Made by a program: the position numbers and the translations under genes
Notes under the pieces: model-generated
The model's database searches: none
Seen by the model: the letters and a program-made list of their open reading frames with translations, nothing else
What the model was told of the DNA's origin: nothing
Shown here: piece by piece, positions 14,331-56,824 of the stretch
Layout of the letters: each line of letters starts with the position of its first letter
Numbering within the stretch: position 1 is the stretch's first letter
DNA from: Sipunculus nudus
Taxonomy: Eukaryota > Annelida > Sipuncula > Golfingiida > Sipunculidae
Assembly: GCA_026874595.1 (NCBI GenBank)
Contig: CM049322.1
Coordinates: 39,612,840 to 39,676,839 of the forward strand
Length of the DNA stretch: 64,000 nucleotides
Direction: 5' to 3'

Positions 14331-14334
14331 TCTT

Positions 14335-29441: not shown

Positions 29442-29618
29442 GGAGCATAGTAAGAATGAAAACCGACAAGTCCATAAAGACCGATCAGCTCCAACTAGAA
29501 CCGATCGGCACGTCATTGACATTAAGAGTTAAAGCGAAGAATGATGCTACAATAGCCTTGTTCAACAACTGGACCAATCCCACAGAGGCATACGAGGTAC
29601 ATATCTATACCAAGAATG
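29442..29618 (+). CDS. FAMeT domain 1, first exon
   Basis: Acceptor CTTTACAG, phase 1 entry. LTLRVKAKNDATIALF and AYEVHIY match the start of the FAMeT fold (compare KFSFSVKACKNVYLAL and TYEIVIG in domain 2). The likely donor is AATG|GTATAT (phase 1); without splicing the frame runs to TGA at 29711-29713. FAMeT domains are now regarded as binding modules rather than enzymes. Confidence 0.65.
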
Positions 29619-30906
29619 GTATATTTACATCATTTAAATGGCCGGCGAATAACATAGCGGAATTAGCAAGATTGATTCAACCTCAAAGATTCACTGTCCT
29701 AGTTTCTTCTTGAAATGGGACCACTTTCAGCACTATATTGACTGAAAGAGAATAATAAAAAATCCTGATAGTCGTTCATGAGGATAGACTTGCACGTTTT
29801 ATTGATAAAATTAGAAGATTTATAAAAACTCTTCATTGCTTGTTTATTCTTATTTCATTCAAATTGACACAAGGTGTTTTATTTTAGGAAAGGTCGTTCA
29901 AACCAGTTGTTACTTATTAGTTCTTAAATGCATTATTACTCTTCCCTTCTTATTTGTAAAAACATACAGAAATTCAGATATTTCAATGATACCACGTAGA
30001 TTTTCATGAAGCTTGAAGAAATTTATAATGTCGAATAGGTTTGATAGTGATAAAACCAACTTTTTTTAATGTACACACATTTTATTATCCTTTCGATATT
30101 AACATTATTATCAATGTGAATGCTGAATAGAGCCTCAGAACCTAGGAGCCGCTTTTAACTAAATGTAAGTGATATGTCGGAACTGTAGAAATTATATATT
30201 AAAAGTGATCAGTACTGTGATAGTTATACTCCATTTTGCATTGTGATAAATATATTACATGAATGGTACTTTTATTTGTCTTTAGTTGGCAATCGGCGGA
30301 TGGAGAAATACACGGTCAGTGTTGCGATGGGAACAGCAAGGTTATAACTTTGGGGACACCGGATACATTGGTCCTTTTTTTGGATCAGAACGCATTTAAA
30401 GACTTCTGGGCACGATGGGGGAATGGGCTGATTGCATTTGGTAGAGGAACAGAAGTTGGCAAGGACAGGTGGTTATAGTTGTACCTGTTAAGATTGTGTA
30501 AATATTTTTCGTTTAAAATGTAGTTGTTATCATTATATTTTATTTCTTATATCTCGAATATATACCCTGTCCAAAGCTAAAATACACACTGAAAGTAACT
30601 AATCAAAATATAACAGGATTGCTCATAACCTTTTTGTTAGCTTATAAATAAAGTAACAGGATATATTCCCGCTACAGTTACGACCGTGTTGCGAGCCGAC
30701 CTCTCAAGTTTACGAACGGTAATATCTATCAAACTGCACACATCATCAACTTGTGGGTAAATTTTATTACAACACTTTAATTACCACCTGACGAAGAAGC
30801 CTGTGTGCTTCGAACGCTCGTGTGTTAATAAACAAGTTGGTCTATCTAAAAGGCATCACTCTTTATCTTTACCTATGCTACAAGTACAGGCTAACACGGC
30901 TATACC

Positions 30907-30964
<58 letters not shown>

Positions 30965-33900
30965 CAGTTAATCATTTACAATGTACTGGTGACCTTTAAT
31001 TATAATACTTATATCAAACTTTGACTAATATAGTTCTTTTGTCAAATATATAAAATCTAAGATATTTTTGCACTTTTAGTGGGGTCTCTGTGTTTGTTCA
31101 CCCCATCCCCCGATAGGTTATGACGGGACTTTAATTGGTACCCCAGAGGCTTCTCAATCTGTAATTTCATCAACTTTAAGAACATATTTAATTAAAGCCA
31201 TAAAACATTCAGGTTTTGACAGTTTTTTATCATCAACAAAAATATATGCTTTTGTTTTTGGATGTTAATCACGCAAAAGCCATGTCGTGTGAGACTTGAC
31301 TAATCGAGAACAGCAAAGGCAAAAAAAAACAGATTCATGTCTTGACTCTATTACTTAATATTAACACAGCGTTATAAAAGACGTTACTGTCTTAATCAGC
31401 GAATCAAAATACATAATCACTTTGTTATATTTAGTCAGAGCGTTTTAGTCAATGTTAGTTAATGTATACTCAGTTATTGTTAAGAAATAAAGAAACACCT
31501 GCTTCTCCATTAACAAAGTTCTTATCTGCATATGATAAGAAGTGGTTAATTCAACAGTGGCGTCTTTTATCTTTATGCCTATGTGTTTTGTATTGATTTG
31601 TATAAGAGAAAATTAGTACACAATTATTTTTTCTTTAAATGAATAAATAAGCTTATCTTTTCACGAAATTTGAAACACAAATGGTTTCTACCAAAATATC
31701 GGGCGAGTTCGAAAGCTGATGACCTTAGCCTTCAGCTTCGAGGCCAAATCTGCTGAAATGTATTTATTTTACCAAAACTTTTTAGGTATTTCACATTTTG
31801 TCTTCAATTGTGGTACCCGACTTGTTTCTCTAAGTTCTTGGAACTGTCCAAAAACCGGCGATCTGAGGAGATACAACGTAAAGTAAGCCGAATAACAATT
31901 ACTGTCTTTTGAACACATTCACTTATTTCGTATTTCTACTTCAAATTCAATATACAAGTTGTTTCCGCTGAGTTCTCGGAATAATATGGGTACTGTTGAC
32001 CTTAATGTTTACTTTCAAGGTCAGATATACGCTATTCTAGGACTAGTGTGACCTAATAACTTTGTAAGGACTGAAGTTATTTCCTTCGTATTCGACAAAT
32101 CGGCTATTTTTGGCAAAATAAAAAATCTCGGCGGAGTTAAAGAAAATCGGTGACCTTGACATTGATCTTCAACGTCAAATCTCCTGAACTCTAGAATAAT
32201 TGATTTGAGATTATTTTTACCCCTTAAGTTTTGGGATGGCCCTCGGGGGAAGGCATATATCTGTTTTTACTCTGCAAAACTAAGACTCCTCAAACACGAT
32301 CAAAGAGTTTGTAACATATCAGACTGAAAGATGAATTTGTTTTTCTTCCAGTATTCTTTCCTGGACAGACCCGAATCCTCGTGCTGTTGCCATGGTTGCG
32401 ATTGCAAATGGATATGGGCGTGACGGGACATGGGAAATACCTCAGCACACAGGTAAAACGAATGAAAATTGAATATTGTAAAAAATACTGTTTTGTTCCA
32501 TACTTATAGCACGGAATTGAGATTTACTAGTATCTTAAAAAATGAAAAATGTAAAATTTAACTGCCTTTTAACACAGGTGACTTCAGAATAAAATAGGCG
32601 TGTTCTCCATTGAAAAAGCTAATACATTTGTTTCATTTTTTTTTCTTAAACATGTTTCTTTCTTACTTAAATTTTTTTTTTCAATCAATAAAAAATTAAC
32701 TTAATATTGTCAGATATAAGAAACATGGCAGGCAAAAAATAAGCTTTGCATTATTGTAATGCTGTAAAAGCGGTTTGCTGTAACTGGTTATCAAAATTCG
32801 TGTATCAATAAAAAAAATATAAAATCCTAAAAATTGTAAACATTGCCTTTAAAAATTATATGCATTTCATAAATACATATTTCACCTGAAAGAACACTGA
32901 TACATTTTAACCTGATTTTATTTAACTGGGATTTTGCCAGGGATGGAATCTTAACACTTAAATACTTAAAGTAGTGCCAGGAGTTCGAGTCTGGTACCGT
33001 TTCATTTCCTGTACTTCTGCTACAGCCGTATGAATATAGTATATAGGATTTCCCAACACACCAGAGTGGGGTCCAAAAGGACCCCCACTCATGAGTACTA
33101 TTTAGATTACTCAGTGCTCGTGCACGAGTACTTTCTTAAAATAACCAAATCACTCATACTGGTACTCGAGTACCAAGTACGTACTCTAAATAACGAGTAT
33201 ATTTATGAATACTTTGGCGTACTTCATTATATGAACATATACTAATAAAATTTAAATATATATTTATAAACAAATAATACATACATACATCGATTCATCC
33301 ATACATACAGACATACATTCATTATACATACATACATTCATACATAGTACGTTCATACACACATTCAAGACTGATGCTGCCAACGATACCCCAAGCTTGA
33401 GGAAGCATCCGAAGGTAAGTTCTCTCCAATGTTAACGTTGTTTGTGGGGGCGGGGGGGGACACTCTAATACGATGCACATTTAGCATAGACACAAGACAG
33501 CAAACAGTAGAAGATCATCCAGTTGGTCACCGATTCAAAAAAGATGTGCTGAACACTAAACCATAGGTTTCAAGCATGCACGTTACATTATAAGTACTCA
33601 GTGCTCGTACTGGAGTACATTTATTGTACTCGGACCCGACTCTGCAACACACGTGTATTATCACAGATCAAGGTATTGACCCCCGCTACGTTTTCTGAAA
33701 TTCTCTATCCAAACCGGCACATACACGCACCCACATACTTCGACACTTACTGGTCTTACTCATTGTCCACATTGCTTTACGAACCATGCCGAGACGTTTT
33801 ATTTCCAACCAAATGAACACACCGTCTTCGGAAAATTTATGCATGGACGCACTTTGCCTACCCAGTTTCTGTTGTCATTATACACCAATATCACTGTCAA

Positions 33901-34846
33901 AATATTATAATAAAATATTCATATAATGTACCCGTAACCTTCATTTTGTTATTTCAGCCAAACGAATGAAGATCAAAACACCAATTTGGAAAACGTACGA
34001 GGTGACTTGGTTCTCAACTACGGAAGTAAACAAATTTTCCTTCAGTGTTAAAGCCTGTAAAAATGTCTACTTGGCCTTGGCACAGGAACTCGGGAAAATA
34101 CCGGCGGGAACATATGAAATTGTTATTGGTTACGATAACTCAGCATCAGTAATTAGAATGATTCATGTCAAAACGGAAACAAGTTCAACACCAGATATTC
34201 TGAACTGCAACGAGTATAGACCATTTTGGATAACCTGGATGCAAGGGTTTATTCGGGTAGGAAAAGGGACCGATATTGGTAAGTGCCAATTTGTTATTGT
34301 AATCGCTGAATTAAGTCAAGAATAATAGCATATTAATATGGCACTTTTATTGGCATTTTTATTTAGCTTCTGTATTTATCAATGTTTAATAAAATCAGTT
34401 TAATTGATAACACAGAAATATCAGGAATAACTCCTTTTCAATCTGATTAATTAAGTTCCTGGACAGTTTAATTTCTTATTCTCTTAGCTTCCAGCGTACT
34501 AAGAATATCTACATCGCCTTATTGATGCACAAGACTTTCGTGTACAATATTGAATTAATATATGGATACAGAACCAATAAGGCTCCTAATATTACCTTAT
34601 ATATTCGTCTAAAATACTTTACCATGACGCATATATAAATACAATAGTAAGACAGAGCTAAACTAGTGCCAATTCCTGGCCACCATAAAACATGTAGAGT
34701 TCCTTTTGTAAACTACCGTTCATGCTGCAATATGGTAATGTCTTCAACTTTTCACAATTTAATAACTGTATCAAGAACACCCTTGCTCGATAAAAATCAG
34801 CAGCTATAAAAGATCATATTTGCTTTGCATGCGGAACTGTTCACTC

Positions 34847-34905
<59 letters not shown>

Positions 34906-35984
34906 TAAAAACACATTTGTTTCTATTTTTAAGGATCGGAGGAATTCTTGCAACATAACTTTAGTCACCCGTACACAATAAACGCTGTAGCCATCAGCAC
35001 TTACCGTTCAGTCAAGCGATTGCTGTTCCATAAAACTACAGGTGGATATACTGATTGTTCAATACATTGTACTCCAACTGTCTCAGTTGATTCTTTGAAT
35101 ACTTTGAATCCAAAATGTTACCCATATCTAATTGAAAGGTGGATAAATATTTAGAAAACAAGTGATACGTTATCTATAAGTATAGCCGAATTATCATGAC
35201 AATCAAAACCATACGAATACTTCAGTACAAACAAGTAAATAACGAGTAGAAACTAAGGTCATATCAAGTAAATCTGAAATAACTTGATTGTTACTGATAG
35301 ATTACCTTTAAAAAATATGCAAAATTATACGCAGAACATTACATCATTTTGTTTTGCGTTTTTAAGAATTCTATTTTCACACACTGTCCCATAAATGAAA
35401 AAAGTTAATTTTTTTAAACAAATTCCGCGGAGGGATACCAAGTGCATATTAATTTTTTTAATTATTCTGATAATAAATGCGCCCATTTTTGCACGACTGT
35501 TTTTTTTTTTATTTGAAGAACATTGTACACATGTAACTTGGTTCTTTCACGTTACACCTCATGCCACCGTTGCATTCATTACGCCGATCGAATGACTTGT
35601 GAACAAGCACGTATTGGAAATTAACATTGGATCGTATACACCAACAGCTATGTACTGGGTTCTTGATTTTTTTTTTACTGATGGTCACTTCAAATATGTG
35701 AAATACCTATTACTAATGACGGAGTAACCGTTGGATAATAAACTCATAGTGAATCAGCATTTTAACTCCTTAAAGAGATATATTTTTCTGTCTTGAAGGT
35801 ACTAAGCGACCTTCAATAAACAACTTATTTCAAAGTGTAACCAATTCTTTATGTAGGTCTCGATTATGATGCATTAGCTCCTTTGCAACGCCTGTCTAAG
35901 ACAGTGCATGGCAATATAATGTAGAGAATTAAAATATTGAAACTATCAATGAAGCGAGTAAGTCATTCTCTTCCCCTATCTCTT

Positions 35985-36546: not shown

Positions 36547-39500
36547 CTCTGAAGAAAAACAACACTGTTAATTCACAACAGTCTGTTTCACTCAACAAAA
36601 TGAAATAAACATTATCTGTTAGAATAACTGTTACCTCGGTCAAATAATCACCATAAATTTTAAAATAAAATACTTTAATGATATTTTATAGCATTATATT
36701 CATAACCTGAATATTTCGCTATCAAAAGGTAAAGATTCCGAAACTAGGAAGTATTGAAATTTAACTATGTAAAATGTAAGGTTTGAATGACATGACCGTT
36801 TTGGCGAAAAAAGATTGATGATTGAAACAGTTAATATTAAGTTACAAAAGTTATACAAAGGTTTCATTTTCGGAGTACCTGTTCTAAACATTCAGCAGTA
36901 GCGTGTGAAAAGAGCTACAAAACGTAATATTTAGATTTGCTGGTATTAAGGGATAATCTGAAACATAGTGCAACAATAAAAGTAATGTTGACAAGTAGGT
37001 GCAGCCTGGTATGATAAACAGACGGATTGCATGATATACAGAAAATACGCTTGACACATTGTGGCTAAACTTTTCCATGGAATGTCAATCGTAGTGACCA
37101 CCACGCTTCATCACACGCCGTCAGTCGGTCTTGTATATCAAACATTGAATTAGGCTATTGATCTTTGGTCAATATTATAGTAGACACGATAAAATTAACG
37201 ATAAAATAGACAATGGGCCAGTATAACACAATGGAGCGGATTTATTTTCAATGTGCTGGATAAGTTTGTCCTCGTTGGTTTGTTTCCATGGAAATGTTCA
37301 CGGTTTGGAGATAAACCGCCGAGAAGACCTGTTTTTGGATGTGGGCCAGATAAGGTCCACAGACCAACGGAGTTTAATCAGTTAGATAGGTACTATCCTG
37401 AAAGATAGACACTTCTAATGTATTCACATGATTAGGAAACTTTTGTTTTGAACATCTAAAGGCCTTCCAACACAATTTATTTTCCTATAAAATCAGTGGT
37501 TCATCCTGAAAAAATGAGGTTTGCATATGTTCCCATTGTTTATCACAATAAGCATTTAGGAAATGTTTGTTATTAAGTTATTTACCATTTAACCCGCAGT
37601 TTGTTCTGTCGGGACATGGGGCCTCCACTGTGCTTTCAGTTGCTCCGTCGGTTGTTACGACGTCTGTGATGGAGAAATAGGCACTTGTCAGTGTAAAGAT
37701 GGCTGGTTCGGTCCTAACTGTAACAATAGTTGTTCAAGCAACTGTGTTGACACGAGATCATGTGATAAACAACAGGGACACTGTCTTTGTAAGCCAGGAT
37801 ACAAACCACCCACGTGTGAATCTGGTAAGTACTCTTCTACCTTACTTCGTAAAATAAGACCATCAACATTAAAACCACGTGCTTGCAAAGAGTTTAAACT
37901 GTTCACTTTTTCCGAATTTAAATAAAAATAAGTCACATCTGCATTAGAGCGACCAATATATACCGCCATCCATTTATCCCATAGAGCCCCCTGTCCGCGT
38001 TATTGTCGGTAGCTATCCTTGGAAATGAAAATGTTTTTCTCAATCCACTGTATAGCATATTTGACCTTATTTTATATATTTATTATTTTTTTACAATTAA
38101 GTGTATTCTGTTTAGCAGTATACTTACTGCAGTTTCGATGTGTAAACCTTTGAATGAGTTGTGATATAACGGATAAAGGTTAATTCCCCTTGGAGTCACC
38201 TTCACTCTTAGGGGAGGAACCTATTATATTTAAATGGAGCGATGGGTCGCCCTGAGGCGTTGTGGAATTTTTATGCTTCAGATCCGTGTATGTTTCCTGT
38301 GAAAAGAAATGACAATTATTCCATCAGGCATGTAATGTCTGAAAAAAAAAACTTTACTATAACTGAAATATGCTCATTTATTTTATTAAGCATAGGATTC
38401 TAACCAGACAAACATTTAGACACTCATTCATTCATAAATTTTACTGACAAACTCTCCTGCATAAGACATTTATTTGATTTGAAATGGGATGTTATTCTCC
38501 ATCACCTATATCGAAGAGGTTTACACACGCACTCTGGACTTATTCCGTCTGATTGACAAAATCCTTTTGTAGGAAAAAGAACTTTTATGTTAGATATTCT
38601 AGTGTTGGACTTCCTGAATACCATTCATCAAACTTTTCTATGTAACCGACTTTTGTTGCTCAGTGATAGAAGTCAGAATTCAAAGCCGGGAGATCATGAG
38701 TTTGAATCTCAGCCGAGGCGGTGCGATTTTTCACGGTCGGCCCCCAAACCATGGTGAGCGCTCTTCAGGCTTAACTAAAGGTATACGATATAAAGATACT
38801 GAGAATTTTTTTGCAGAATGCCCAAATGGCTACGGGGGCGCTGGTTGTACTGAAATGTATTCAGAGAATTGTGCCAACAAACATAATTGCAGCAAAATAG
38901 ACGGGTCGTGTACTTGCAAACCGGGATTCAGAGGAGTCAGTATTTGATGATTTATTATTATTATTATTACTAACCAAATGATCCTTTTCCTTTGGATTAT
39001 TGTCTCGCATGAATAACACGTATTATCCCAGAGTTATTCTTTCCAACACTCTGATTGTGTCTGGTCAAATCCCAAGTTCCGCTTTTTCAGTTGTATTATG
39101 GTCTTTGCCGCTTCTGTACATTTAACACACAACCCGGGCAAATGTGGAGAAGGCTTTCGTAAATCGTGTCCTAATATAAAGTGTCGTCAAGTTATCATGA
39201 ATTTGTATTCTTTTCAATGAATAATATAAACAAATTATATTTTTAATTAAAAAGGAGTTTGTTATAATATCATTAAAGGATAAAAATACACCTTCAGCAT
39301 GTTCCCACTTTCAGAACTGTGGTCCGTTTGCGTAAAATTGTCCTTTTTTTATAATATTTTTGGGTATGCATCTAATGTATCGATCTTACATAAATATATA
39401 TATAATGTTATGCTTTCTTTTTTTTTCATACTTTAACCATGCCTTGACTTTTTAGCCGATGACTGTTAAGCTGGCATTGTACAAATGTTTGAACTTTGAC

Positions 39501-42500: not shown

Positions 42501-43283
42501 TGATAAAGTCTGAAGCATTAGGTTAATTTTTACTTTTATTGCAATCATCAGTCTCTGCCTACGGGACTCCGTGATCCATGCGTGGTAGGCAGCACAGCGG
42601 AAGCATCTGTCAAGAACAAGTTCAGGAACATTATAGCATGTAGGTATTAAAAGGATGTCGCTATTTTTATTATTATAACAAATGAAGGACGTTTTAGGAA
42701 TAAATGAACGGAAAATTCTTTTCCCATAAATAGTGCTAACATTGCTTAAATGGCTTCTAGTCTTACAAGAAAGGATAACCGCAGTCAGTTTAAGCATATT
42801 ATATTTGTTTCAACATACATTGTATTCATAACATTATTCATTCAGTTTAATTTCACTTATTATGACTAAATTATTTTATTACCGAATAACTAAACTGTCC
42901 TTTTTTATGCTAAACATTATAGGGGTACGGTGTAAAATGTAAAATACTATGCAGATATTGTAAATAATATATTCATGAGTCTTAAATAAAATTCTAGACA
43001 TAGAACTGTATGCTTGTTTCCTGTACAGTTAACATACATGTATTAAGTAGCCATTAGGGAATCATACACAAACAGTATGCATATTAAAACTGCGGAAAGG
43101 CTCGAACTACGCTCTTTACACACATACCATCCATCATTCAGCATGCCATTACTGATTTTTTTAATGATGTAAGGAATCTTCCACAGATGACCATAGCCGT
43201 GTAAACATCAGGGGGAGACACTCCTATTTCGAAGTATATCAACGCTAGTTTCATAAATGTAACGGTTGAAACGTTCAACTATG

Positions 43284-43343
<60 letters not shown>

Positions 43344-43824
43344 GATTTAGTTCAAAGAAAGATGAAACAAATGTGTTCATAAAATGTATGTGGTTATCCT
43401 GAAAAAAAAACAATATTTTTAAGATTCCATAACGAAGTAACCTTATTGAGCCCTTTTTCATTTGATGCCCATAAAAGTGAAAAGAAATAACCAGACCACC
43501 ACATTTCGGGTTCTCTGGTTTACTCCACCTCTCGACGTTACCGAACGTCACCACCTGATTGCCTCGAGTACCTATCGTAACTGTTTATACCATCCATGTA
43601 ACAGTTTAACGTTTATTTTGAATAACACAAATACGTTTATGAGCGTTTCCGGATAGAATGAGTTAAGTATTCTTTAAACTTACAGGGCTATGGTGCACTG
43701 AAATCTTTCATAGCGTCACAAGGTAAGGTACATCTTTGTTTATTCCAAATGTTCTACCTGATTTATCGGTGTTTACAAGGTCTGCTTTGAATTATTACTC
43801 TCCTGATCAAAGATAAACATGCTG

Positions 43825-43879
<55 letters not shown>

Positions 43880-46800
43880 TGTATTATATTAATATATACA
43901 TGTATATATAAATATATGATGTTTATTTAACAGGACCAGTAAAAGAGACAGTTGCAGATTTTATACAGATGTTGTGGGAGCAAAAGGCTCTGTAAAAAAG
44001 GCCACTGTATAGCATATTTGACCTTATTTTATATATTTATTATTTTTTTACAATTAAGTGTATTCTGTTTAGCAGTATACTTACTGCAGTTTCGATGTGT
44101 AAACCTTTGAATGAGTTGTGATATAACGGATAAAGGTTAATTCCCCTTGGAGTCACCTTCACTCTTAGGGGAGGAACCTATTATATTTAAATGGAGCGAT
44201 GGGTCGCCCTGAGGCGTTGTGGAATTTTTATGCTTCAGATCCGTGTATGTTTCCTGTGAAAAGAAATGACAATTATTCCATCAGGCATGTAATGTCTGAA
44301 AAAAAAAACTTTACTATAACTGAAATATGCTCATTTATTTTATTAAGCATAGGATTCTAACCAGACAAACATTTAGACACTCATTCATTCATAAATTTTA
44401 CTGACAAACTCTCCTGCATAAGACATTTATTTGATTTGAAATGGGATGTTATTCTCCATCACCTATATCGAAGAGGTTTACACACGCACTCTGGACTTAT
44501 TCCGTCTGATTGACAAAATCCTTTTGTAGGAAAAAGAACTTTTATGTTAGATATTCTAGTGTTGGACTTCCTGAATACCATTCATCAAACTTTTCTATGT
44601 AACCGACTTTTGTTGCTCAGTGATAGAAGTCAGAATTCAAAGCCGGGAGATCATGAGTTTGAATCTCAGCCGAGGCGGTGCGATTTTTCACGGTCGGCCC
44701 CCAAACCATGGTGAGCGCTCTTCAGGCTTAACTAAAGGTATACGATATAAAGATACTGAGAATTTTTTTGCAGAATGCCCAAATGGCTACGGGGGCGCTG
44801 GTTGTACTGAAATGTATTCAGAGAATTGTGCCAACAAACATAATTGCAGCAAAATAGACGGGTCGTGTACTTGCAAACCGGGATTCAGAGGAGTCAGTAT
44901 TTGATGATTTATTATTATTATTATTACTAACCAAATGATCCTTTTCCTTTGGATTATTGTCTCGCATGAATAACACGTATTATCCCAGAGTTATTCTTTC
45001 CAACACTCTGATTGTGTCTGGTCAAATCCCAAGTTCCGCTTTTTCAGTTGTATTATGGTCTTTGCCGCTTCTGTACATTTAACACACAACCCGGGCAAAT
45101 GTGGAGAAGGCTTTCGTAAATCGTGTCCTAATATAAAGTGTCGTCAAGTTATCATGAATTTGTATTCTTTTCAATGAATAATATAAACAAATTATATTTT
45201 TAATTAAAAAGGAGTTTGTTATAATATCATTAAAGGATAAAAATACACCTTCAGCATGTTCCCACTTTCAGAACTGTGGTCCGTTTGCGTAAAATTGTCC
45301 TTTTTTTATAATATTTTTGGGTATGCATCTAATGTATCGATCTTACATAAATATATATATAATGTTATGCTTTCTTTTTTTTTCATACTTTAACCATGCC
45401 TTGACTTTTTAGCCGATGACTGTTAAGCTGGCATTGTACAAATGTTTGAACTTTGACTTTACTTATTCTTATGTAAATGGCAAATTACTGTAAACTCTGC
45501 AGTGTGCATGAATTGGAATGAAGATGGAGCAGACACATTTGTGACTGTGAAAACACTATTTCTCACTAGTTATGTTCATTATAGTTATTCGTTCAATTGT
45601 GCGTTCACACCTTATAGCTTGTGATAACGGAACATTAGGATTTAACTGTGAGAGCACCTGCCACTGTAAAAGAGGACATGATGATTGCAGTAAGGTCAAC
45701 GGAACATGCAAGAGTGGACAGTGTGTAGAAGGAAGGGAAGGCGTGGCTTGCCAAATGCTGAGTACGTTTTAAGCGCTTAACACAGACGAGTGTCGCCTTC
45801 ACTTTATCTGGCACATCTTAATATGACTTTTTTATATGTAAAATTTCTTTATAACAAGCTGCCTACCTATAAGGTAACTCGATGCGCAAAGTCTACCTTC
45901 CGCGCTTTCTATAGATGTATTATCAACAGCTACTATAGTTGTCATCAAAAGATATTTACATATACATTGATCGGATGAGTAATGGGAAAATCCGAGCTTT
46001 TGGTGATTTCACTAGAGTTTGCCAACTTTCAGCTAGCCTTCTGTTCCTTTTCTTGAGATAATTTAAACCAACGATAATCCTCTAGCTTTCATACCATAAT
46101 TTACAATTCCTCTGAGGAGAAGAAACCAAGAGCACTTATGAATTCAAATTATTTTGAAAAATGCGTCTTCATAAAGCTTAAAAATAAAGTTGAAAGAATA
46201 AGTGGAGACCTATTTTCCTGACTGGTCAAAAAGGTAAATATCTAACTGTAAGATAATTAAAATTTATGTAATTAAATATTAAATGTCGGGCTTTTTAAAA
46301 ATCAAATTCAGATTTGACATTTAAAGAATTAGATTAATAAAAAAAAATGTTATAAAGAGACGAACGTTGGACAGATGTTTCATTTTGTGTTGCAATCTTG
46401 AAATAAATTATTTTATTGTTATCAAGGTTTATTTTCAAATTATGCCGTTGCAGCTTCTGCCTCTTCCTCACCTTTAAGTATAGCAATAGGTGTTGGGATT
46501 AACGCAATAATAATTGTGATTATAGCCACGATTCTGGTAATTCTCTTTTTGAGGTGAGTACCTTATATAACCCGTAAATTAAAAACATAGGGAGACCTTA
46601 AATCTAAATTTAGACATTCGTTTAGACAGGTAAACGATGTAGATTATTAGAATGTCTAGCTGCTTGTCCAATTTGCCAGATAAATTGATTGCTACTATCC
46701 AAAGTTGCAATTAAGCGAAGTTAAGTGTTTTTTTATAACTTAATTAGAATAAATCGACTCCCACTTTTCGTTAAAAATGTGCATTTTATAAAACCACAGG

Positions 46801-49240
46801 TGGCTAGTATTATGATAATGATAATATAGAAATGCATGTCCTGCATTTGCCCTACTTGAGATGAGAGAGTAGTTTATGTTGTGTTGTCATGACTGAGCAA
46901 ATACTATAAAATTAAAAGAATTTGTATAGTTGTTTATGTTATAGATTCATCTCATTTCATTCAGCCTGATTAAAGACTGGATTATTTCACGTCGAACTGT
47001 CTGACAGTTCCAATGTGAATGGTACTTACAATACATAATAAGTAGAATCATATAATTTTACGTAAAATTCTATCACATTTTACATTGATTACAAAGTTTC
47101 TGTCACAGCGTAATGTATTCGCTATTAGTAATCATTTGTATGAATATTTGATCAACACTGTGACAAAACAAAGGTCATTATATTATCAAAAGACAACAAA
47201 TGATAATGATATAAGCACTGGGTTGTAAATAAAATACAACAGCGGAGCGAATCTAGACTACATAAATATATTTCGAAAATGACCTTTTTAAGTTCAGGAA
47301 ATATAAACCTAATGTTCAGAAAATTAACCGTGTAACAAAATTGGTATACCTACTGCTTATTGATAATTTGGTAGACATTGCTTACTGAGAATTTTGATTT
47401 ATAGATTAGACAAATAATGGTATACTTGTTCTCACAGCTATGCTTTGCTGTGAACTTTACTTTTCTTACTCCTGATAACTGATGGGCTATAACAAGTCAT
47501 TATTGCAGTTTAATTTTACAAAGCAGAAGACAAAGGCGGAATGATTCTGCCAAGAGTGAAAACCACGTAACACTTGGTACGTTTCTGGTTCTATTTGCCT
47601 TTCATAATTAGAAGCGAAATCGGTCCTCGAAGTTTTTCTAAGTACAATTGTAATATGCAACCAAGTATACTCCCGACGTTTCTAGCAAGCTTAACAACCC
47701 TTGAGATTCATAATAATATCGGGTGTATTCTTAACATCTTGAAAGTTCTTGATTTTAGAAAATTTAAAAAATACTTGTATTTTCTGTACCATAAACAGTG
47801 TAATATCATCGTTTATGTTTGCATCAATATGTAAATTTTCAATAGTGAGTGGTTTGGATTTATTTATCTGTAATGTTATGCTTGTGTAAATTTGGACTTT
47901 TGGGCATTTACATAACGTGTAAAAACAACGGCAGATGAATAAATAAAATGTTAACGTATCGCCAGGCTGAAGGCAATTTTAGAAAGGTCAAGAATTTTAA
48001 ACACTTAAAAACACAATTAAACCTTTTGAAAATACCTTAAAAAAGTAAGAAACAATATTGGTAACATAAATCTGTAATTCAGTTTTGATGATCTTTTATT
48101 TATGATCATTTAAAATGATAGTCAATTTTGACTTTATTTAGAGACACTGCCAGCGGTTAAAACTGCTCTACCCTCATCAAACAAAAATGTACCCGAAGAT
48201 ACGGTCAACTATGAAAACTTGGGAATACGAGTTACAGAGTTCCCGGATTATGTCCGAGAAATGAAGCAAACTGAAAATGGGTTCCAAGAGGAATATGAGG
48301 TATTTCATAATGTAATTTGCATGTATCTATATTTCGAGTAACATGTGAATTTACTGGCATTTAAGATACTTCGGGTTAACATTCAAGAGTTGTACTAAAG
48401 ATTTAATCTCGGCATGATTGTGCCTTCCTGTTGCTATTAGATTAACCTGTGACCTGTTGATAAAGTCTGAAGCATTAGGTTAATTTTTACTTTTATTGCA
48501 ATCATCAGTCTCTGCCTACGGGACTCCGTGATCCATGCGTGGTAGGCAGCACAGCGGAAGCATCTGTCAAGAACAAGTTCAGGAACATTATAGCATGTAG
48601 GTATTAAAAGGATGTCGCTATTTTTATTATTATAACAAATGAAGGACGTTTTAGGAATAAATGAACGGAAAATTCTTTTCCCATAAATAGTGCTAACATT
48701 GCTTAAATGGCTTCTAGTCTTACAAGAAAGGATAACCGCAGTCAGTTTAAGCATATTATATTTGTTTCAACATACATTGTATTCATAACATTATTCATTC
48801 AGTTTAATTTCACTTATTATGACTAAATTATTTTATTACCGAATAACTAAACTGTCCTTTTTTATGCTAAACATTATAGGGGTACGGTGTAAAATGTAAA
48901 ATACTATGCAGATATTGTAAATAATATATTCATGAGTCTTAAATAAAATTCTAGACATAGAACTGTATGCTTGTTTCCTGTACAGTTAACATACATGTAT
49001 TAAGTAGCCATTAGGGAATCATACACAAACAGTATGCATATTAAAACTGCGGAAAGGCTCGAACTACGCTCTTTACACACATACCATCCATCATTCAGCA
49101 TGCCATTACTGATTTTTTTAATGATGTAAGGAATCTTCCACAGATGACCATAGCCGTGTAAACATCAGGGGGAGACACTCCTATTTCGAAGTATATCAAC
49201 GCTAGTTTCATAAATGTAACGGTTGAAACGTTCAACTATG

Positions 49241-49310
<70 letters not shown>

Positions 49311-49791
49311 GATTTAGTTCAAAGAAAGATGAAACAAATGTGTTCATAAAATGTATGTGGTTATCCTGAAAAAAAAACAATATTTTTAAGATTCCATAAC
49401 GAAGTAACCTTATTGAGCCCTTTTTCATTTGATGCCCATAAAAGTGAAAAGAAATAACCAGACCACCACATTTCGGGTTCTCTGGTTTACTCCACCTCTC
49501 GACGTTACCGAACGTCACCACCTGATTGCCTCGAGTACCTATCGTAACTGTTTATACCATCCATGTAACAGTTTAACGTTTATTTTGAATAACACAAATA
49601 CGTTTATGAGCGTTTCCGGATAGAATGAGTTAAGTATTCTTTAAACTTACAGGGCTATGGTGCACTGAAATCTTTCATAGCGTCACAAGGTAAGGTACAT
49701 CTTTGTTTATTCCAAATGTTCTACCTGATTTATCGGTGTTTACAAGGTCTGCTTTGAATTATTACTCTCCTGATCAAAGATAAACATGCTG

Positions 49792-49848
<57 letters not shown>

Positions 49849-50723
49849 TGTATTATATTAATATATACATGTATATATAAATATATGATGTTTATTTAAC
49901 AGGACCAGTAAAAGAGACAGTTGAAGATTTTATACAGATGTTGTGGGAGCAAAAGGCTCCATTGGTTGTTATGGTGACGAACCTTGAGGAGAAGGGAAAG
50001 GTACATGACATGACATTCGGCGTTATTGAAAAGCGATATTGGAGACTTTACCATGTTGCTAAATTTGTGAAACTCCTCTTTACAAGGAGTTCGATTTGGA
50101 GTTTATACGAAATATACAATGACATTCAGTTTATAACGTTTTATATATTTTATATATCATATATCTATTTCCGCAAAATAAAGTTCTTTTTTTTATTTTA
50201 AATTAGGAAAAATGCTATAAGTACTGGCCTGAACAGTTACACACCGGAACCATATGTCACCGAGGAATCGTTTTGAAGAAAATTAAAGAAGGAAAATTTC
50301 CGCACTTTATCATACGGCACCTTGAGTTTGAAAAGGTTCACCGAATTTTAGCTGTTGTCAGAGCCGCTACCTACTGACTGACTATGTATTAGTCGCATGG
50401 TCAAAATAAATGGTTTCTTTACCTTCTGATGGCATACCATGAATTTGATATCATATTTAATTCTATTCCCAAATAATATAAATGTTAATGTTTTACATAT
50501 TTTATCTTTATTCTTACAGTTCTGTCTACTCCAAAACTGGCACTTTTGTAAAACAGAACAGGAATGTTTTCGCCTATTTTACCTATTTCTTACATTATTC
50601 TGAATCAAATATTTGTAATTATGCTTACTGGAATATAACATGAAGTATATGTAAGTAAAAAATCGATTGTTGTACAAGTTCTATACATATAGTTTCCGGT
50701 TCTGGACTGTAACGTGAAAAGTT

Positions 50724-50782: not shown

Positions 50783-53700
50783 TTTTATCTTAATCTGAAT
50801 CCACAACCAGGGAATTTATGTAATTTATCTTTCTCATAAAATGAATCCATCTTCAATTTCAAATCAGGATAATACTAGGCAGCCATGGACACAGATACAA
50901 TACATATCCTGGCCTGACCACGGGGTACCTGAGAGTCCAGCAGCATTTCTTGAATTCCATCAAAAGGCAAAACAAATGTACAAACCAGATATTGGACCAA
51001 CAGTAGTTCACTGCAGGCAGAGCACATCTAATGTACATATATTTATTCAGGTAATACGCATGGTTATATATTTCAAAGAATTTGCCTTAAATATTTAATT
51101 TGGGAAATTTGTAGAAACTCGTGTTTAAAACCTGTAGAAAGAGAATAATCAGCTGGTAAGTTAAAACAGTTCGGTAATTTTTTTTATTGCTGAGGGTTAA
51201 GTTTGCAAAAGTCAGAGAAATAATAACAAACATCTGCTTTTTTAATTTTATTTTAATTTGCTTATATAGTAACCTTTTCCTAAACAAAAATATAACGAGA
51301 CGATTGTTCGAATATCGAGGCATCTTAATCCAGTTGTGTTAGAAACCTATTCCGTTAGGCAGCGAATACATGCATGTTTTCCCTAAGTCAGTATATGCAT
51401 TTTAAATACTGTCAGGAACTAATGGAACACACAGCGCCGCTCATTAAAATTAAACTTTTTTATTTTCATGTAACACAGTGCCTGTTTAACTATACTAAAT
51501 GACCCGCAGCTTTCCACCGTTCTTAAAAGGTGATCTATGTTCTCAGTTCTGATTTGTTCTATACATATCAACGATATGTGAAGAAGCAAACTCTGTCATG
51601 TTCTTCCGTAAGTGTATTACCTTAATTACATTTTACCGTATGGGATAACGTTACAGTTTGCAAAGTTTATTGTAAATCATTGGCATAAGTGCTGGCGTTG
51701 GTCGGACTGGGACATACTTGGCTGTGGACTATCTCCTAGAGCAGGCAGAACGTACAGGCTTCATCAGCATAAGTGATTGTGTCAGATTGATGCGGAAAGA
51801 CCGGGTCAACATGGTACAGAGCCTGGTGAGTGCGGCCATCTGTAGGAGAAATAGGAAATAAGTAAAAGGTACCATGTACTAAAATATGTACCAAAATATT
51901 TGTAATATGATTTTTACAGATGAATATTAAATGCTGAAAGGCGATATTTGTATATGTACATCCTTTTGACAGCGGATGGCTAGAGCACAAACACACACAC
52001 ATTTTCTTTAAGAATAAAGCTTACCTGAGAACGTGAATAATCTTTTAGAGTTAATGTGATGCCTAACTCTAAGAAGCACGGACGATTAGGTGTATTCATT
52101 TTTGATATTCTGATAAATACAGCTTTTGTTGTATTTTAGGACCAGTACGTGTTTATACATGAGAGTCTGCTGGAGGCACTACACTGCGGGAAGACGGTGT
52201 ACGATGTTGCCAGCTACGAAGGCGCATCCAGCGCGGAGAAGACAGATCTGATAAAACAATACGACGTGAGTTCAATTGTAAATGTGTAAATTAGCGAAAC
52301 CATTACTCCTGAGACTGTAATTAAATGCATCTCATTTGGTTTGTATTAATATATCCCATTTTATGAATATGTAAGAGACCTTTACAGAATGATACTGTAC
52401 AACACAGCCAAGGCACGAGAGTCCAAAGTACTAGGCGTTTTCCACGTTAAATCAAGATGCATATCATCCGTCACACGCGCACACACATATGAATATTCAT
52501 ATATATATATGACATTATTTTTGTAGATGCTTGAGAAAATGAAACCTGTTGTGTCCAGTGCCAACCTGGCCCCCGCCAAAACTACGGAAAACAGGAAAAA
52601 GAATAGATCCCAGGATGTACTTCCTAATTCTAAGTTTCGCCCTCTGTTGAGAACGAATGTTGCAGAAAGTAACGATTACATCAATGCAGTTTTCGTGCAT
52701 GTAAGTCATTGCTGCAGTCAAACATATGTTTAACTGTAACATTGTTAAAAACTATATAAGAAACCTTCTGAATTGAACCTTCTGATTAAAATCAAGAAAT
52801 GTGTTAATTACATTTCCCGGAAGCCTGACTTATGTTGTTAATATATGATATATCATTTTAACTACGTTATGGATAAATAAATTTAAAAACGTTGAAGAAG
52901 GCACTGATAACCTACCTATGCCGAGGCATATTGAATGCGTCATCACTTTTACATGTAATGTGTTGCCAAACCCGATCTGAGTAGTATACGGAAGACTAAA
53001 TCATTTCGCTTAAATTCAAAGATGCGTGCCTGGTGACCATTCGTCTGGGTAACTTTGGTTAACACAATATACGTGCTTTGAAAGAAAAAGATAAAAATAA
53101 CATATTGACTGGCCTGTTTTTGTTTTAAATGGGTACCTTGTATTTTAATCTCTGTGGGCATGTAGCAAAGAATAGCATTAAGGAACAATAAATAAAGATG
53201 TCAGGAGGAACGTGCGTTACCAGAATATCCTGAAACAAAGCCCGATATATGCTTGTTGCCGAATCCTCATCTATGATAAGACCACAGTTGTGGCCCTGAC
53301 CTTTACACTAAGGCTCTGTAATGGTGAAATTGTAGATCGTGCCAAAAACTGCTACATACACACATCAAAATACATCCGGTCCTGTCTTTGGTAGTAAATG
53401 AGTCCTTCTGGCAATATTAACTCATTCATGCCATGATATTTTAATGAAACTTTATCCCCTAAGATCCTTGTAAACCGGCCGTCATTCAAACATGAGAAAC
53501 TCCCGGAACTTGTTGCGAGCGGACATTGATCGACTAGTTCCCTGTACGGTCCTTAATTAACGCCTACTTTTTTTCAGTTCCAACAGCGGTCATATCCGAG
53601 CGGGGTCCCAGTTTAAACCCATTGCAAAGAACTGTCGGACACTAAATACAATGATGGCAAAAATATTAGGTCTCTCGGTATAATTATGGACGTGTAGGGC

Positions 53701-56700
53701 AATTGAGCATTACATTGTTTTTACAAGCTTTTCAGAAGTTTTATAAATTATCCAAAGGCAACGAAAAGGTAATATGTTGACACGGCCTAAAAACTCACAT
53801 GCGATTCCGAAGGGTCCCCTTATTCGGAACCATAAAGGGCTTTCACTGTAGCGCTGAACTCCAGACTTTGATGAAGAGCCGCAAGGCGAGAAATAAAGTC
53901 CCTTGGCTAAGACAAGATGTATGTTAACAATAAAAGCAGATTGAATCTTCCAGGGTTACCAGAAGAAACATGCCTTCATTGCTACGCAGAGTCCACTCCC
54001 AAGTACCGTGCTTGATATATGGAGACTCTTGAAAGACCACGAAAGTAATACAATTATTGCGCTTAATGATACCGGGTCGGAAAAGGTGAGTCGCCATGCG
54101 AAATTAAGCTTAGAAAATCCAATACGAACACTGTGTTTCCTTAAGTTTAATTTATGTCAACAGGGATATCAAATAAAGCAGTAAGTTATATTAGCTATCT
54201 ATGACGAATATAAGTAAATTATATTATTATTACATTTCAGCTATTTTTGTCATGTTTCCTTTGCATTCTGTGCTATTTCAATGAACGCTTATCTTTCACA
54301 ATCTTATAATCCCTTCGTCGCATGTTATCTGTTTAGCAAGTTATTTGGTCATGTTAGCAATTTATGGTTCATATCAACTCATTGATCATCATTTTATTAC
54401 TAAGGCTAGTCCAATATACTGGAGCAGAGAGGAAGAAAAAATCAGTCCATTTGTCGTAGATATAGTGGAGGAGACAGAAAGCAATGGTTACCTCAGGAGA
54501 CATCTTATATTCAAATATCAGGTATAAGATAATTTACGTTTTTAGACGTCTAAATATCGCTGTTAAAACATTGTTCTGTACAGTAGGTATTCAATGACTT
54601 TTTATCGAGACAATGATGCTGAAGGCACCTGTCGGGAACCTCACGCATTGATCTAAGAGGATAAAACACACGTGTTCCGCGTTTATCGTCAACAAGCAAA
54701 ACTGATAAACAACTAAAAAAACTTTAAATGCACTTTTCATATTTTGATTTATTCTTCATATTGAACATATTTTTTTTCCTAACGTACCCACCACAGGCAT
54801 AAAAAAAATATAACATAGTAAGGCCACTCTACATATATTTATATAACTTTCAAACAATATAAACTAGCATAAAATAATTACCAACTAATCATGAACAGTA
54901 ACGTAAGCGGCTAAGAAATTTTACAAGGACACATTTAACGCCTATATTGAATTATTACATGATTACAGGACGACAATATTTATGACTCGAAAAAAAATTT
55001 GTTTCAGGCTGTGGGGGGGGGGGGGGGGCTTGACCTCAACTGCTAACCTCAGCTAATGAAATTTTTTCAATTCATTTCAGGATGAAGAGAGAAAAGTGAT
55101 ACAGTTTCAAGTCAAATCCTGGGCTCCTGGTACACTACCAGCAGCAGCAACCCTCTTGCGTTTGTACGGAGATGTAAAGAACTGGCAGCAAGAGTCCGGG
55201 GACAGCTGCTTCATCGTTCACTGTCTGTGAGTGATAAAGCAGCAGTACTTTGTCGTGGGAGATGTATATGTGTTTGTCGTATAGACACAGATCGTCAGAG
55301 ATACGTCGAACGACGTTTAATTGGTACGGTGTACGTCATCAGAGGTCTCTATGCTGTTTAATGAAAGTCCTCATATGGCCTGTAATACACTTTGGACTGT
55401 AGGCCTCATTATGTTATTTGGTACTCCGGTAAAAGAAGTGGTTGAAATGGATTATTGGTGCTTAACTTCCTAAACAGATATTCCTTGTTGATGTTGAGGC
55501 GTACTTTAATGTAAACCATAAGAAGACAAATCAACATCTTCAGTTATTTATATTTAAACACTCATAGCATTACGCACAAATATAACTATCTGATTACAAA
55601 TCATGAACCAACTGCCATTTTGCTTAGATAACATGGAGGCCTTGTAATAAGCGCCATAAAGACATGCATGTCTGAACGTGTTTACCTACCGGGTGTTTAA
55701 AGGCGACATTCCTCACGTACACGTCATTTTGTCATTTGGTGCATTTTCCTATGTGATTTGGTGGTGTAGGGGATTGGATGTGTAATGTTAGTTTATAGGT
55801 GCAGTCTGTCGGAGAGGGGTCGATCAGTTTAGGGGGATCACTTACGATTGGTCCATCCAAACTAGATTTCTAACCAAACTTATGTCAATCTGTAGATACG
55901 GTGCAGCAAAAACAGGCCTTTATATCTGTCTGTGCCACGTGTGTGACAAGATAGAGCGGGAACAGGAAGTCGATGTGTTCCACGCAGTACAAAAAATCAG
56001 AAAGAGTCAGCCATTGTTCATCACCGACAAGGTATGTTTGTATTTAAAATATATATTGTAATTATACTACTAGTTTGCAAAGAAATCTTTACTGGTATGC
56101 CTATATTAGTAACTTGCATAAAAACTTTACACAATTTGTCTGTCATGAAAGACAATATCAGAACAAGATTTATTGAAGTTCAATAACAAGGATAATGTTT
56201 CTTGTAAAGTTTCCTATATCTAAATTCCATATTTAATATGATTTTATTAATGATTATTAGATTAATTCTAAATGTCTAACATATCAGAAGACAGTCATGT
56301 GTCATGATGTAGAAGCTTTTTTTAAGTATAGACTTTAATGGTTAAGCTGGGAGTTGTTTTAAACATTATTAACAAAACCATCCGCTTTCTCGTGGTATTA
56401 AGCGGCGCAGTTCCATAAATCCAATCGTGTACTCTAAAACTAGACCCTAACTAAGCTAACCCGCAAGAATTTTATGAAATAATACAATCCACCTTTATAA
56501 CACCATGTCTTAGGGTACGTTATGGAATAGAGTTAGAACAAGTTTGTTTGCTTGCAATAGTGAGTTTGCGTTATAAGGTACCGATACTATAATATGTGCA
56601 GGTATAACTAATGATCTGTATGATGCACATTCTTATGTGAACTACATGTATCACGTTGCTGAAAATTATACTTAAATTTCCCGGATGCTGGACTTCCGAT

Positions 56701-56824
56701 TGACTTTATTTTTAAACTTATTATAACGTTCTATTTCTAAATATTTCAGGAACAGTACGAGTGGCTCCATCAGGCGGCATATGAATACATCATTTCATTT
56801 AGTATGTATGCAAACTTTAAGTGA
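29442..56824 (+). CDS. Receptor-type protein tyrosine phosphatase with FAMeT and EGF-like domains (5' incomplete)
   Basis: A type I membrane receptor that would remove phosphate from tyrosine in intracellular proteins. Order: two FAMeT (farnesoic acid O-methyltransferase-like) domains, MEGF-like EGF repeats, one TM helix, juxtamembrane, catalytic D1, degenerate D2. About 23 distinct exons were placed, and nearly all junctions agree in phase. D1 keeps SWPDHGVP and HCSAGVGRTG, so it should be active. D2 has HCLYGAAKTG (Lys for the catalytic Arg), as in inactive D2 domains. An internal 5.95-kb duplication repeats seven exons. Phase breaks occur in FAMeT 1 and in the YINASFIN exon of D1. The N-terminal exon was not found. 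Family call is firm; whether the locus makes a full protein is uncertain. Confidence 0.8.
30286..30468 (+). CDS. FAMeT domain 1, second exon (frame mismatch)
   Basis: Acceptor GTCTTTAG, donor AG|GTGGTT. In one frame it reads FKDFWARWGNGLIAFGRG, the clear counterpart of YRPFWITWMQGFIRVGKG in domain 2. That frame needs a phase-2 partner, but the preceding exon ends in phase 1; the phase-1 join reads NVGNRRMEKYTVSV and stops at TAA soon after. A one-base difference therefore separates the two halves, either real or an assembly error. Confidence 0.6.
30660..30961 (+). mobile_element. Retroelement-like end with hammerhead-related hairpin and (AT)n tail
   Basis: CTGACGA (30788-30794), a GAAGC/GCTTC hairpin and GAA (30812-30814) are framed by ATTACCAC (30780-30787) and GTGTTAAT (30822-30829), which pair 7 of 8. 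This is hammerhead-like but lacks the usual A15.1-U16.1 pair. The element ends in a long AT tract. I associate this pattern with Penelope-like element ends. It lies in an intron of FAMeT domain 1. Confidence 0.4.
32352..32452 (+). CDS. FAMeT domain 1, last exon
   Basis: Acceptor TCTTCCAG, donor G|GTAAAA. Encodes ILSWTDPNPRAVAMVAIANG then DGTWEIP, the typical end of a FAMeT domain. Entry phase 2 matches the exon at 30286, and exit phase 1 matches domain 2. Confidence 0.75.
33045..33655. mobile_element. MITE-like element with GTACTCG-rich ends in a FAMeT intron
   Basis: The left end has CACACCAGAGTGGGGTCC and the right end, inverted, GTGTTGCAGAGTCGGGTCCG. Both are followed inward by GAGTAC-rich sequence and ACTCAGTGCTCGT. 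The interior holds (CATA)n at 33277-33362. The ends recall hAT-type transposons, and no transposase is encoded. Confidence 0.45.
33958..34278 (+). CDS. FAMeT domain 2, main exon
   Basis: Acceptor ATTTCAG, donor G|GTAAGT, phase 1 both sides. Contains KFSFSVKACKNVYLAL, TYEIVIGYDNSASVIR and EYRPFWITWMQGFIRVGKG, a nearly complete FAMeT fold. The best-preserved evidence for this family in the gene. Confidence 0.85.
34853..34900. repeat. (AT)n microsatellite
   Basis: Pure AT tract in the intron directly before the last exon of FAMeT domain 2. Confidence 0.9.
34934..35041 (+). CDS. FAMeT domain 2, last exon
   Basis: Acceptor TTTTTAAG, donor G|GTGGAT, phase 1 both sides. NAVAISTYRS is the final strand of the domain, equivalent to VAMVAIANGYG in domain 1. 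It splices in frame to the EGF exon at 37600. Confidence 0.75.
35878..36595. repeat. Diverged direct repeat ending in (CT)n(AT)n
   Basis: CCTTTGCAACGCCTGTCTAAGAC, ATTAAAATA and GCGAGTA recur at 35880-36033 and 36370-36544, each leading into CT then AT tracts. The second unit runs into a 50-base copy of the inverted-repeat arm at 14420 (36543-36592). CTGTTACCTCGG also occurs twice (36335 and 36629). Confidence 0.65.
37600..37824 (+). CDS. EGF-like repeats, first exon
   Basis: Acceptor ACCCGCAG, donor G|GTAAGT. Encodes about 75 residues with cysteines spaced as in laminin/MEGF EGF repeats: GTWGLHC, GTCQCKDGWFGPNC, GHCLCKPGYKPPTC. This module is extracellular and precedes the duplicated block. 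Confidence 0.85.
38655..38775 (+). mobile_element. tRNA-derived SINE-like element (copy A)
   Basis: TTGCTCAGTGATAGAAG (A-box-like) and GAGTTTGAATCTC (B-box-like) 30-40 bases apart, followed by a GC-richer tail. It lies in the intron just before the EGF exon at 38817 and has an exact second copy at 44612-44732 through the segmental duplication. Confidence 0.55.
38817..43995 (+). CDS. Copy A exons: EGF, TM, juxtamembrane, start of D1 (dead end)
   Basis: Exons 38817-38939 (CPNGYGGAGC EGF), 39661-39804 (DNGTLGFNC EGF), 40497-40596 (TM helix, IAIGVGINAIIIVIIATILV), 41552-41619 (basic juxtamembrane), 42185-42342 (IRVTEFPDYVREMK, typical RPTP juxtamembrane), 43686-43722 (GYGALKSFIASQ) and 43934 onward (PVKETVADFIQMLWEQKA). 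The last exon is cut by the duplication junction: it reads Leu then TAA at 43993-43995 and has no donor. A transcript must skip it. Exon 43686 could then splice in phase 1 to copy B at 44774, or copy A may be skipped as a whole from 37824. Confidence 0.8.
43187..43258 (+). pseudogene. Frame-broken D1 exon remnant (copy A)
   Basis: Reads DDHSRVNIRGRHSYF in one frame and KYINASFIN in the next, at TTTCG/AAGTATATC, ending AAT|GTAACG in phase 0. These are the conserved YDHSRV and YINASF motifs that should precede GYGALKSFIASQG. One extra base (or two missing) breaks the frame. A better upstream continuation (KNRYK motif) is not visible, so the exon start is uncertain. Skipping it keeps frame because its neighbours are phase 0. 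Confidence 0.6.
43289..43331. repeat. (AT)n microsatellite, copy A
   Basis: Its copy B counterpart at 49246-49298 is 10 bases longer. This is one of the few differences between the duplicated blocks. Confidence 0.85.
44612..44732 (+). mobile_element. tRNA-derived SINE-like element (copy B)
   Basis: Identical to the element at 38655, copied as part of the 5.95-kb duplication and not by a second insertion. Confidence 0.55.
44774..50000 (+). CDS. Copy B exons: EGF, TM, juxtamembrane, start of D1 (continuous with D1)
   Basis: Exons 44774-44896, 45618-45761, 46454-46553, 47509-47576, 48142-48299, 49653-49689 and 49903-50000, each the counterpart of a copy A exon with the same splice sites. The final exon is complete: ETVEDFIQMLWEQK then VVMVTNLEEKGK, donor AAG|GTACAT, phase 0. 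ETV-E-DF here replaces ETV-A-DF of copy A. Confidence 0.82.
49144..49215 (+). pseudogene. Frame-broken D1 exon remnant (copy B)
   Basis: Same sequence and same frame break as at 43187-43258, so the break predates the duplication, or both copies derive from one sequence during assembly. Confidence 0.6.
50207..52265 (+). CDS. PTP D1 catalytic exons
   Basis: Exons 50207-50335 (EKCYKYWPEQ to FEK), 50868-51016 (QIQYISWPDHGVPESP to VVHC), 51690-51825 (SAGVGRTGTYLAVDYLLEQ to NMVQSL) and 52140-52265 (DQYVFIHESLLEAL). The WPD loop Asp, the nucleophile Cys in HCSAGVGRTG and the Q-loop are all present. The signature is divided by an intron between Cys and Ser; its donor is GC (CTGCAG|GCAGAG at 51016/51017), the only site that restores AG+T = Ser in phase 2. 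The exon at 50207 uses AAG|GTTCAC; unspliced, it meets a stop about 43 bases on. Confidence 0.87.
50727..50780. repeat. (AT)n microsatellite in a D1 intron
   Basis: A pure AT tract of about 54 bases between the exons at 50207 and 50868. Confidence 0.9.
52527..56824 (+). CDS. PTP D2 pseudophosphatase exons and C-terminus
   Basis: Exons 52527-52700, 53954-54085, 54405-54521, 55081-55226, 55896-56031, 56750-56824. Recognisable D2 landmarks are RPLLRTNVAESNDYINAVFVH, GYQKKHAFIATQSPLP, STVLDIWRLL, IYWSREEE and IVHC|LYGAAKTGLY. The catalytic Arg of HC(X)5R is Lys, and the WPD loop is replaced by a SWAPGTLPA-type loop, so catalysis is unlikely. The end is QYEWLHQAAYEYIISF, typical for D2, then TGA at 56822-56824. 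All phases agree. Confidence 0.87.

Follow-up and report, generated by a model that had tools for sequence, protein, structure and literature searches.

We analysed a 64,000-nucleotide stretch of the Sipunculus nudus genome (the window; contig C17, positions 39612840-39676839, in an assembly of 1.43 Gb and 153 contigs). Between positions 29442 and 56824 of the window, on the forward strand, lies a chain of 25 exons. These encode, in order, two FAMeT domains, three EGF exons, a membrane span and the phosphatase domains D1 and D2 (Table 1). Intron phases fit throughout this chain, from its first FAMeT1 exon to its end at the stop codon (56824), with the exception of two single-base frameshifts. 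The gene is a member of a multigene family in its own genome. Known heads of vertebrate and insect receptor phosphatases are of the Ig, FN3, MAM or carbonic anhydrase type. No FAMeT receptor phosphatase is described among the literature matches listed, though three papers contain both terms.

The initial annotation had read this region as a receptor tyrosine phosphatase with FAMeT and EGF modules, unusual or lineage-specific, whose FAMeT head may bind a lipid or other ligand. The spliced exons were scored against Pfam, with an X placed at both frameshift points, and all domains scored over their cut-offs. FAMeT1 and FAMeT2 reached 72.6 and 67.8 bits (PF12248, gathering cut-off 24.2), EGF_laminin 25.2 bits (cut-off 21) and Y_phosphatase 243.8 bits for D1 and 167.2 bits for D2 (cut-off 20.9). 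Together with the matching intron phases, these scores confirm the chain from FAMeT through EGF and transmembrane segment to D1 and D2. One correction is needed: FAMeT1 is spread over three exons. Owing to a frameshift, its IGGWRNTRSVLR stretch and the part that follows are read in different frames. Across the 25 exons, frame 0 contains 4 stop codons, compared with 56 and 74 in the other two frames. Three of the four fall downstream of the frameshifts inside FAMeT1 exon b and D1b; the fourth is the true stop. A single hydrophobic transmembrane exon, judged by eye, lies between the ectodomain and D1, and is duplicated in the window assembly.

The two phosphatase domains carry different motifs. 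D1 contains WPDHGVP, HCSAGVGRTG and the Q-loop; its exon D1b is frameshifted in the window but not in paralogs A or D, described below. In D2, WAPG replaces WPD and the P-loop reads HCLYGAAKTG, so that the P-loop arginine is lost (A and D have glutamate there). The pattern of HC(S)AGVGRTG with WPDHGVP in D1, and HC-YGAA(K/E)TG in D2, is common to the window gene, A and D. Judged by these motifs, D2 should be inactive and the catalytic motifs of D1 are intact. The best solved-structure matches are both to PTPRS (2fh7 for D1, 4bpc for D2). A search of the PDB with FAMeT2 gave one match, at E 1.1, and the predicted fold of the FAMeT2 exon had a mean pLDDT of 40.7 and was unusable. Scans of viral contig and genome contig collections with this exon found no relative.

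Other detected family members lie on contig C13. Genome-wide, FAMeT matches number at least 151, counts for large families being lower bounds, and most of those listed are on C13. Searching with the two FAMeT domains of the window gene returned sets of the same exons between 29.9 and 31.8 Mb of that contig. At locus A (~31.715-31.741 Mb) all 25 exons were mapped, with AG at 25 of 25 acceptors and GT at 24 of 24 donors. For locus D (30.736-30.756 Mb, minus strand) the count is 24 of 25 exons, with AG at 23 of 24 acceptors and GT at 23 of 24 donors; its last exon, D2f, is beyond the stretch fetched. At locus F (31.752-31.776 Mb) 23 of 25 exons were mapped, from FAMeT1 exon c to the stop. FAMeT1 exons a and b precede the stretch searched here, and exon a has a match at 31.7525 Mb. 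Locus E (30.694-30.717 Mb, minus strand) encodes FAMeT, EGF, D1 and D2 in order. It was read by tblastn; blastn mapping failed or misplaced exons D1c to D2c. The colinear paralogs A, D and F, and E with gaps, strongly support the initial view that one gene joins the FAMeT, EGF and phosphatase modules.

Constraint was estimated as NG86 dN/dS over 1057 codons shared by the window gene, A and D, leaving out D2f (not reached by the stretch of D), gapped codons and frameshift codons. Values were 0.254 for window-A, 0.277 for window-D and 0.231 for A-D. The 3' end of EGF2 is unsettled, and the spliced translation of A is out of frame after it; codons were taken per exon, so only the EGF2 end is affected. 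By part, the window-A comparison gave 0.36 for FAMeT, 0.24 for EGF, 0.155 for D1 and 0.18 for D2. The FAMeT domains (0.29-0.36) are faster evolving than D1 (0.12-0.17). The value of 0.25 against A shows long constraint. On the separate branches, dN and dS were 0.058 and 0.163 for the window gene, and 0.054 and 0.279 for A. Constraint in the window copy thus appears somewhat relaxed.

Loci B (31.650-31.667 Mb) and C (31.063-31.079 Mb), also on C13, have head exons as in the phosphatase loci and a different tail. No same-strand phosphatase match was found within the 30 kb fetched for each, up to ~15 kb past EGF3; a D2-like match lies on the opposite strand downstream of C. Both genes end in a single terminal exon, with a phase-1 acceptor like that of the transmembrane exon in the others. 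It encodes a membrane span and a 54-residue tail. In both, the tail contains YESI-x10-YASL. This fits the consensus of the immunoreceptor tyrosine-based activation motif (ITAM), YxxL/I x6-12 YxxL/I. The B and C tails are 73% identical, with a dN/dS of 0.247 over the 54 cytoplasmic codons. The tail exon has no match in the window or A and chance-level matches only in D, and Pfam holds no family for either tail. Locus C has no stop in its mapped exons, EGF2 excepted, where mapping is unreliable. A genome-wide search with the tail gave nine matches, five of them ~4-14 kb downstream, on the same strand, of a FAMeT2 exon.

Thirteen FAMeT2 loci were counted in the window and in C13 29.9-31.8 Mb. Five were mapped as phosphatases (window, A, D, F, and E with gaps) and two, B and C, as ITAM-like. 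Judged solely by position and strand, two further loci have D1 exons ~9-12 kb downstream (30.859/30.847 and 30.946/30.937 Mb), and three have tail matches ~4-8 kb downstream (30.978/30.970, 29.925/29.921 and 31.006/30.999 Mb). These three probably carry the ITAM-like tail. A FAMeT2 match with five stops, at 29.978 Mb, was assigned no tail. Both tail types are interleaved in one 1.9-Mb stretch of C13: four phosphatase loci (E gapped) and two ITAM-like loci are linked there, alike in their heads but opposite in their tails.

Heads and tails of these genes are discordant. In trees of the heads, A (phosphatase) groups with B (ITAM-like) as its sister; local support is 0.999 for FAMeT2 exon a and 0.998 with EGF1 and EGF3 added. 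Over the compared residues, A and B heads are 85% identical, B and C heads 71%. Although its head sister is A, B shares its tail with C. Exchange of heads and tails by recombination or conversion would be the simplest account.

As assembled, the window copy is broken, by recent loss or by assembly error. A 5.95-kb block spanning EGF2 to mid-D1 is present as two tandem copies (Table 1). These differ by one substitution, ~35 bp from the junction, and by two microsatellite length differences. In A, a single stretch aligns to the two copies, and both frameshifts are missing from every paralog where the exon was mapped. Because the paralogs lack the indels, A, D and F have a GT donor after D1f, and A is single-block, the frameshifts, the GC donor and the duplication look peculiar to the window copy. 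The duplication and frameshifts, and the ITAM-like tail of the sister genes, were missed by the initial annotation. We give close to an even chance to the window copy being a recent pseudogene that has acquired two frameshifts, lost a GT donor and had its D1 cut short by an internal duplication. The lengths of FAMeT1 exon b and D1b, the D1e and D1f donors, and the filler and in-frame TAA at the duplication (all Table 1) agree with this, as does a dN/dS of 0.36 on the window branch compared with 0.19 on that of A. However, there is no further premature stop across 3313 exon bases outside the two frameshifted exons, and both frameshifts lie in homopolymers, where sequencing error is frequent. 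GC splice donors, moreover, are in use at low frequency. Just as probable is an intact window gene with a single block, the frameshifts and the duplication having been introduced by assembly error. The near identity of the block copies, the position of the indels in homopolymers and the single block of A speak for such errors. Neither the 11-bp filler nor the GC donor is typical of them, however, and the paralogs were mapped in the same assembly without the two indels.

Starting from the established gene structure, colinear paralogs, constraint, D1 and D2 motifs, second tail type and head/tail discordance, we lean, by a little, towards a ligand or surface class that is recognised by a shared two-FAMeT/EGF head and read by both ITAM-like activating receptors and phosphatase receptors, so that the two are balanced at the cell surface. 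Vertebrate immunity offers the best-known paired receptors, and head/tail reassortment is typical of paired activating and inhibitory receptors. Briefly, the FAMeT-FAMeT-EGF head would lie outside the cell and bind a ligand or surface class common to both forms. In the phosphatase form (window, A, D, F and, less completely, E), D1 would remove phosphate from nearby tyrosines. In B and C, and probably at three more loci, a Src-type kinase would phosphorylate the tail, which would then recruit a tandem-SH2 kinase. The two forms would oppose one another at the cell surface. We do not expect the FAMeT head to be a methyltransferase here. More tentatively, the family may be an invertebrate paired-receptor system, with one FAMeT-EGF head on activating ITAM-like or opposing phosphatase tails, clustered and trading heads and tails, that could recognise self, microbes or mineral surfaces. 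If so, it would be an independent solution, with the brake built into the receptor, in a clustered invertebrate family. The poorly understood FAMeT module would gain a receptor role, testable with the matched heads of A and B.

Several observations weigh against pairing. It is read from seven mapped loci in one genome, of which E is incomplete. In B, a TAG interrupts FAMeT2 prematurely, so that A and B may be a live gene paired with a dead one. In E, exons D1c and D1d gave no tblastn match, juxtamembrane exon 2 contained stops as mapped, and AG/GT is missing from several boundaries, so this locus may be damaged; the argument is carried by A, D and F. The tail motif was read in two genes, and the YxxI-x10-YxxL spacing can arise by chance. 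Four of the nine tail matches have no listed FAMeT neighbour. A and B are not sisters in a tree of EGF exons only. Finally, no convincing signal-peptide exon came to light at the window gene, A or D, the loci searched for one. We find it possible, if rather doubtful, that there is no paired system, and that ordinary receptor phosphatases share a head, by exon shuffling, with ITAM-like genes that are scavenger receptors of the Draper/MEGF10 kind. The EGF exons of the window family presumably resemble those of MEGF proteins. Secreted adhesive proteins of sea stars likewise have FAMeT-EGF heads (PMC9382459). However, the two tail types are interleaved on C13, and the near-identical heads of A and B sit on different tails.

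The proposed pairing can be set beside known systems. LAR/PTPRS, PTPRA and PTPRE have a transmembrane segment, a D1 with intact motifs and a tandem inactive D2, as predicted here, but the window family has a FAMeT-FAMeT-EGF head and a D2 without WPD and the P-loop arginine. Draper, CED-1 and MEGF10 have EGF repeats, one transmembrane segment and a YxxL/I tail, as in B and C. Here, by contrast, there are two N-terminal FAMeT domains and a short tail, and the window type has a phosphatase instead. With KIR, LILR and SIRP the family shares clustered genes, near-identical heads, opposite tails and discordant head/tail histories. The inhibitory arm here, however, would be a built-in phosphatase rather than a recruiting immunoreceptor tyrosine-based inhibitory motif, and the heads are FAMeT-EGF, not Ig. 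The sea star proteins Sfp3, Sfp4a and Sfp7 join FAMeT to EGF repeats, Sfp7 having two FAMeT and two EGF-like domains, but they are footprint (adhesive) proteins and the available text mentions no phosphatase (PMC9382459). FAMeT domains are met in shell-repair, shell-matrix and adhesive proteins. FAMeT-domain genes are reported as raised in repairing mussel tissue (PMC8194122). The function of FAMeT in mollusc biomineralization proteins and in the sea star footprint is described as unknown (PMC9382459).

The initial annotation had also named the case of a separate upstream FAMeT gene ending before 37600, with the receptor phosphatase starting at EGF1; this is exceedingly improbable and ruled out by the colinear paralogs, because A, D and F (E less completely) keep the same order, with the same phases in A, D and the scanned part of F, and no signal-like start exon lies between FAMeT2 exon b and EGF1 (the same scan found none convincing upstream of FAMeT1 either), although that intron is the longest of the head (2.56 kb) and holds 9 AATAAA/ATTAAA, compared with 2.8 per kb window-wide.

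The scan for first exons gave 18 candidate starts upstream of FAMeT1, many of them nested or with weak donors, and six on the opposite strand over an equal length. Upstream of A there were two, both weak, and upstream of D none. Two upstream segments, 13988-14422 and 27480-27700, are shared with A; the second, which matches A twice, was inspected and contains no signal-peptide exon. A GC donor considered after FAMeT1 exon b was dropped, as a GT donor slightly downstream gives the matching phase.

Table 1. Exons and other features of the FAMeT receptor phosphatase gene in the window
Feature	Position	Strand	Remarks
FAMeT1 exon a	29442..29596	+	Phase 1 in, 0 out; 155 nt, as in A, B, C and D
FAMeT1 exon b	30286..30468	+	T7 run at 30375-30381 gives +1 frameshift; 183 nt vs 182 in A, B, C and 179 in D
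FAMeT1 exon c	32352..32452	+	C-terminal part
FAMeT2 exon a	33958..34278	+	PF12248 E 9.7e-16 for the open frame containing the exon
FAMeT2 exon b	34934..35041	+	
EGF1 exon	37600..37824	+	Phase 1-1; about two EGF-like units; 85% identity in A
Tandem block copy 1	38045..43990	+	EGF2, EGF3, transmembrane, juxtamembrane, D1a-c, truncated D1d
Truncated D1d exon of copy 1	43934..43995	+	Reads into in-frame TAA at junction
Filler at duplication junction	43991..44001	.	11 bp
Tandem block copy 2	44002..49959	+	Continues into remaining D1
EGF2 exon	44774..44896	+	3' end unsettled: weak donor; 139 nt aligned in A and B
EGF3 exon	45618..45761	+	
Transmembrane exon	46427..46553	+	
Juxtamembrane exon 1	47524..47576	+	
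Juxtamembrane exon 2	48142..48299	+	
D1a exon	48509..48596	+	KNKF replaces KNRY at pTyr loop
D1b exon	49144..49215	+	YDHSRV; G5 at 49168-49172 gives +1 frameshift; 72 nt vs 71 in A, D, E, F
D1c exon	49653..49689	+	
D1d exon	49903..50000	+	
D1e exon	50207..50335	+	Donor gttcac
D1f exon	50868..51016	+	WPDHGVP, HC; donor GC, GT in A, D, F
D1g exon	51690..51825	+	SAGVGRTG
D1h exon	52140..52265	+	
D2a exon	52527..52700	+	
D2b exon	53954..54085	+	
D2c exon	54405..54521	+	
D2d exon	55081..55226	+	WAPG replaces WPD
D2e exon	55896..56031	+	HCLYGAAKTG
D2f terminal exon	56750..56824	+	With stop

Further FAMeT and phosphatase sequences were seen elsewhere in the genome. A dense array of FAMeT exons occupies C13:27428192-28057467, many with nearly the whole domain in one open frame, compared with the five-exon form here. 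Two phosphatase-domain matches lie at C9:10215804-10217474, in open frames of 1154 and 1198 aa; the first is 58% identical to the window D1 and intronless within the match. More arrays of D1-like phosphatase exons, on C2 (51-53 Mb) and C15 (58-60 Mb), suggest large expansions of receptor phosphatases. In the clam Mercenaria, a species-specific expansion of phosphatase-like genes comprises 13 genes (PMC8905726). This would fit a setting where phosphatase-like families grow. The tail matches without a listed FAMeT neighbour, at 41-45% identity, are at C13:30323528, 37597906, 37647146 and 31042655, the last of these containing two stops. At locus C, a stretch that lies downstream of the tail exon recurs about every 1.0 kb, with three copies seen.

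Scans for tRNA and Rfam families found nothing. Just upstream of the gene, at 21354-27303, are a YqaJ nuclease open reading frame (+), DDE_Tnp_4 pieces (-) and a THAP domain (-), which we take to be the make-up of an ISL2EU-type DNA transposon. A long open MFS transporter exon lies further upstream (3093-4262, +). Downstream, a Lectin_C match at 62791-63048 (+) marks another gene, and 63267-63509 resembles its next exon, with no Pfam family.

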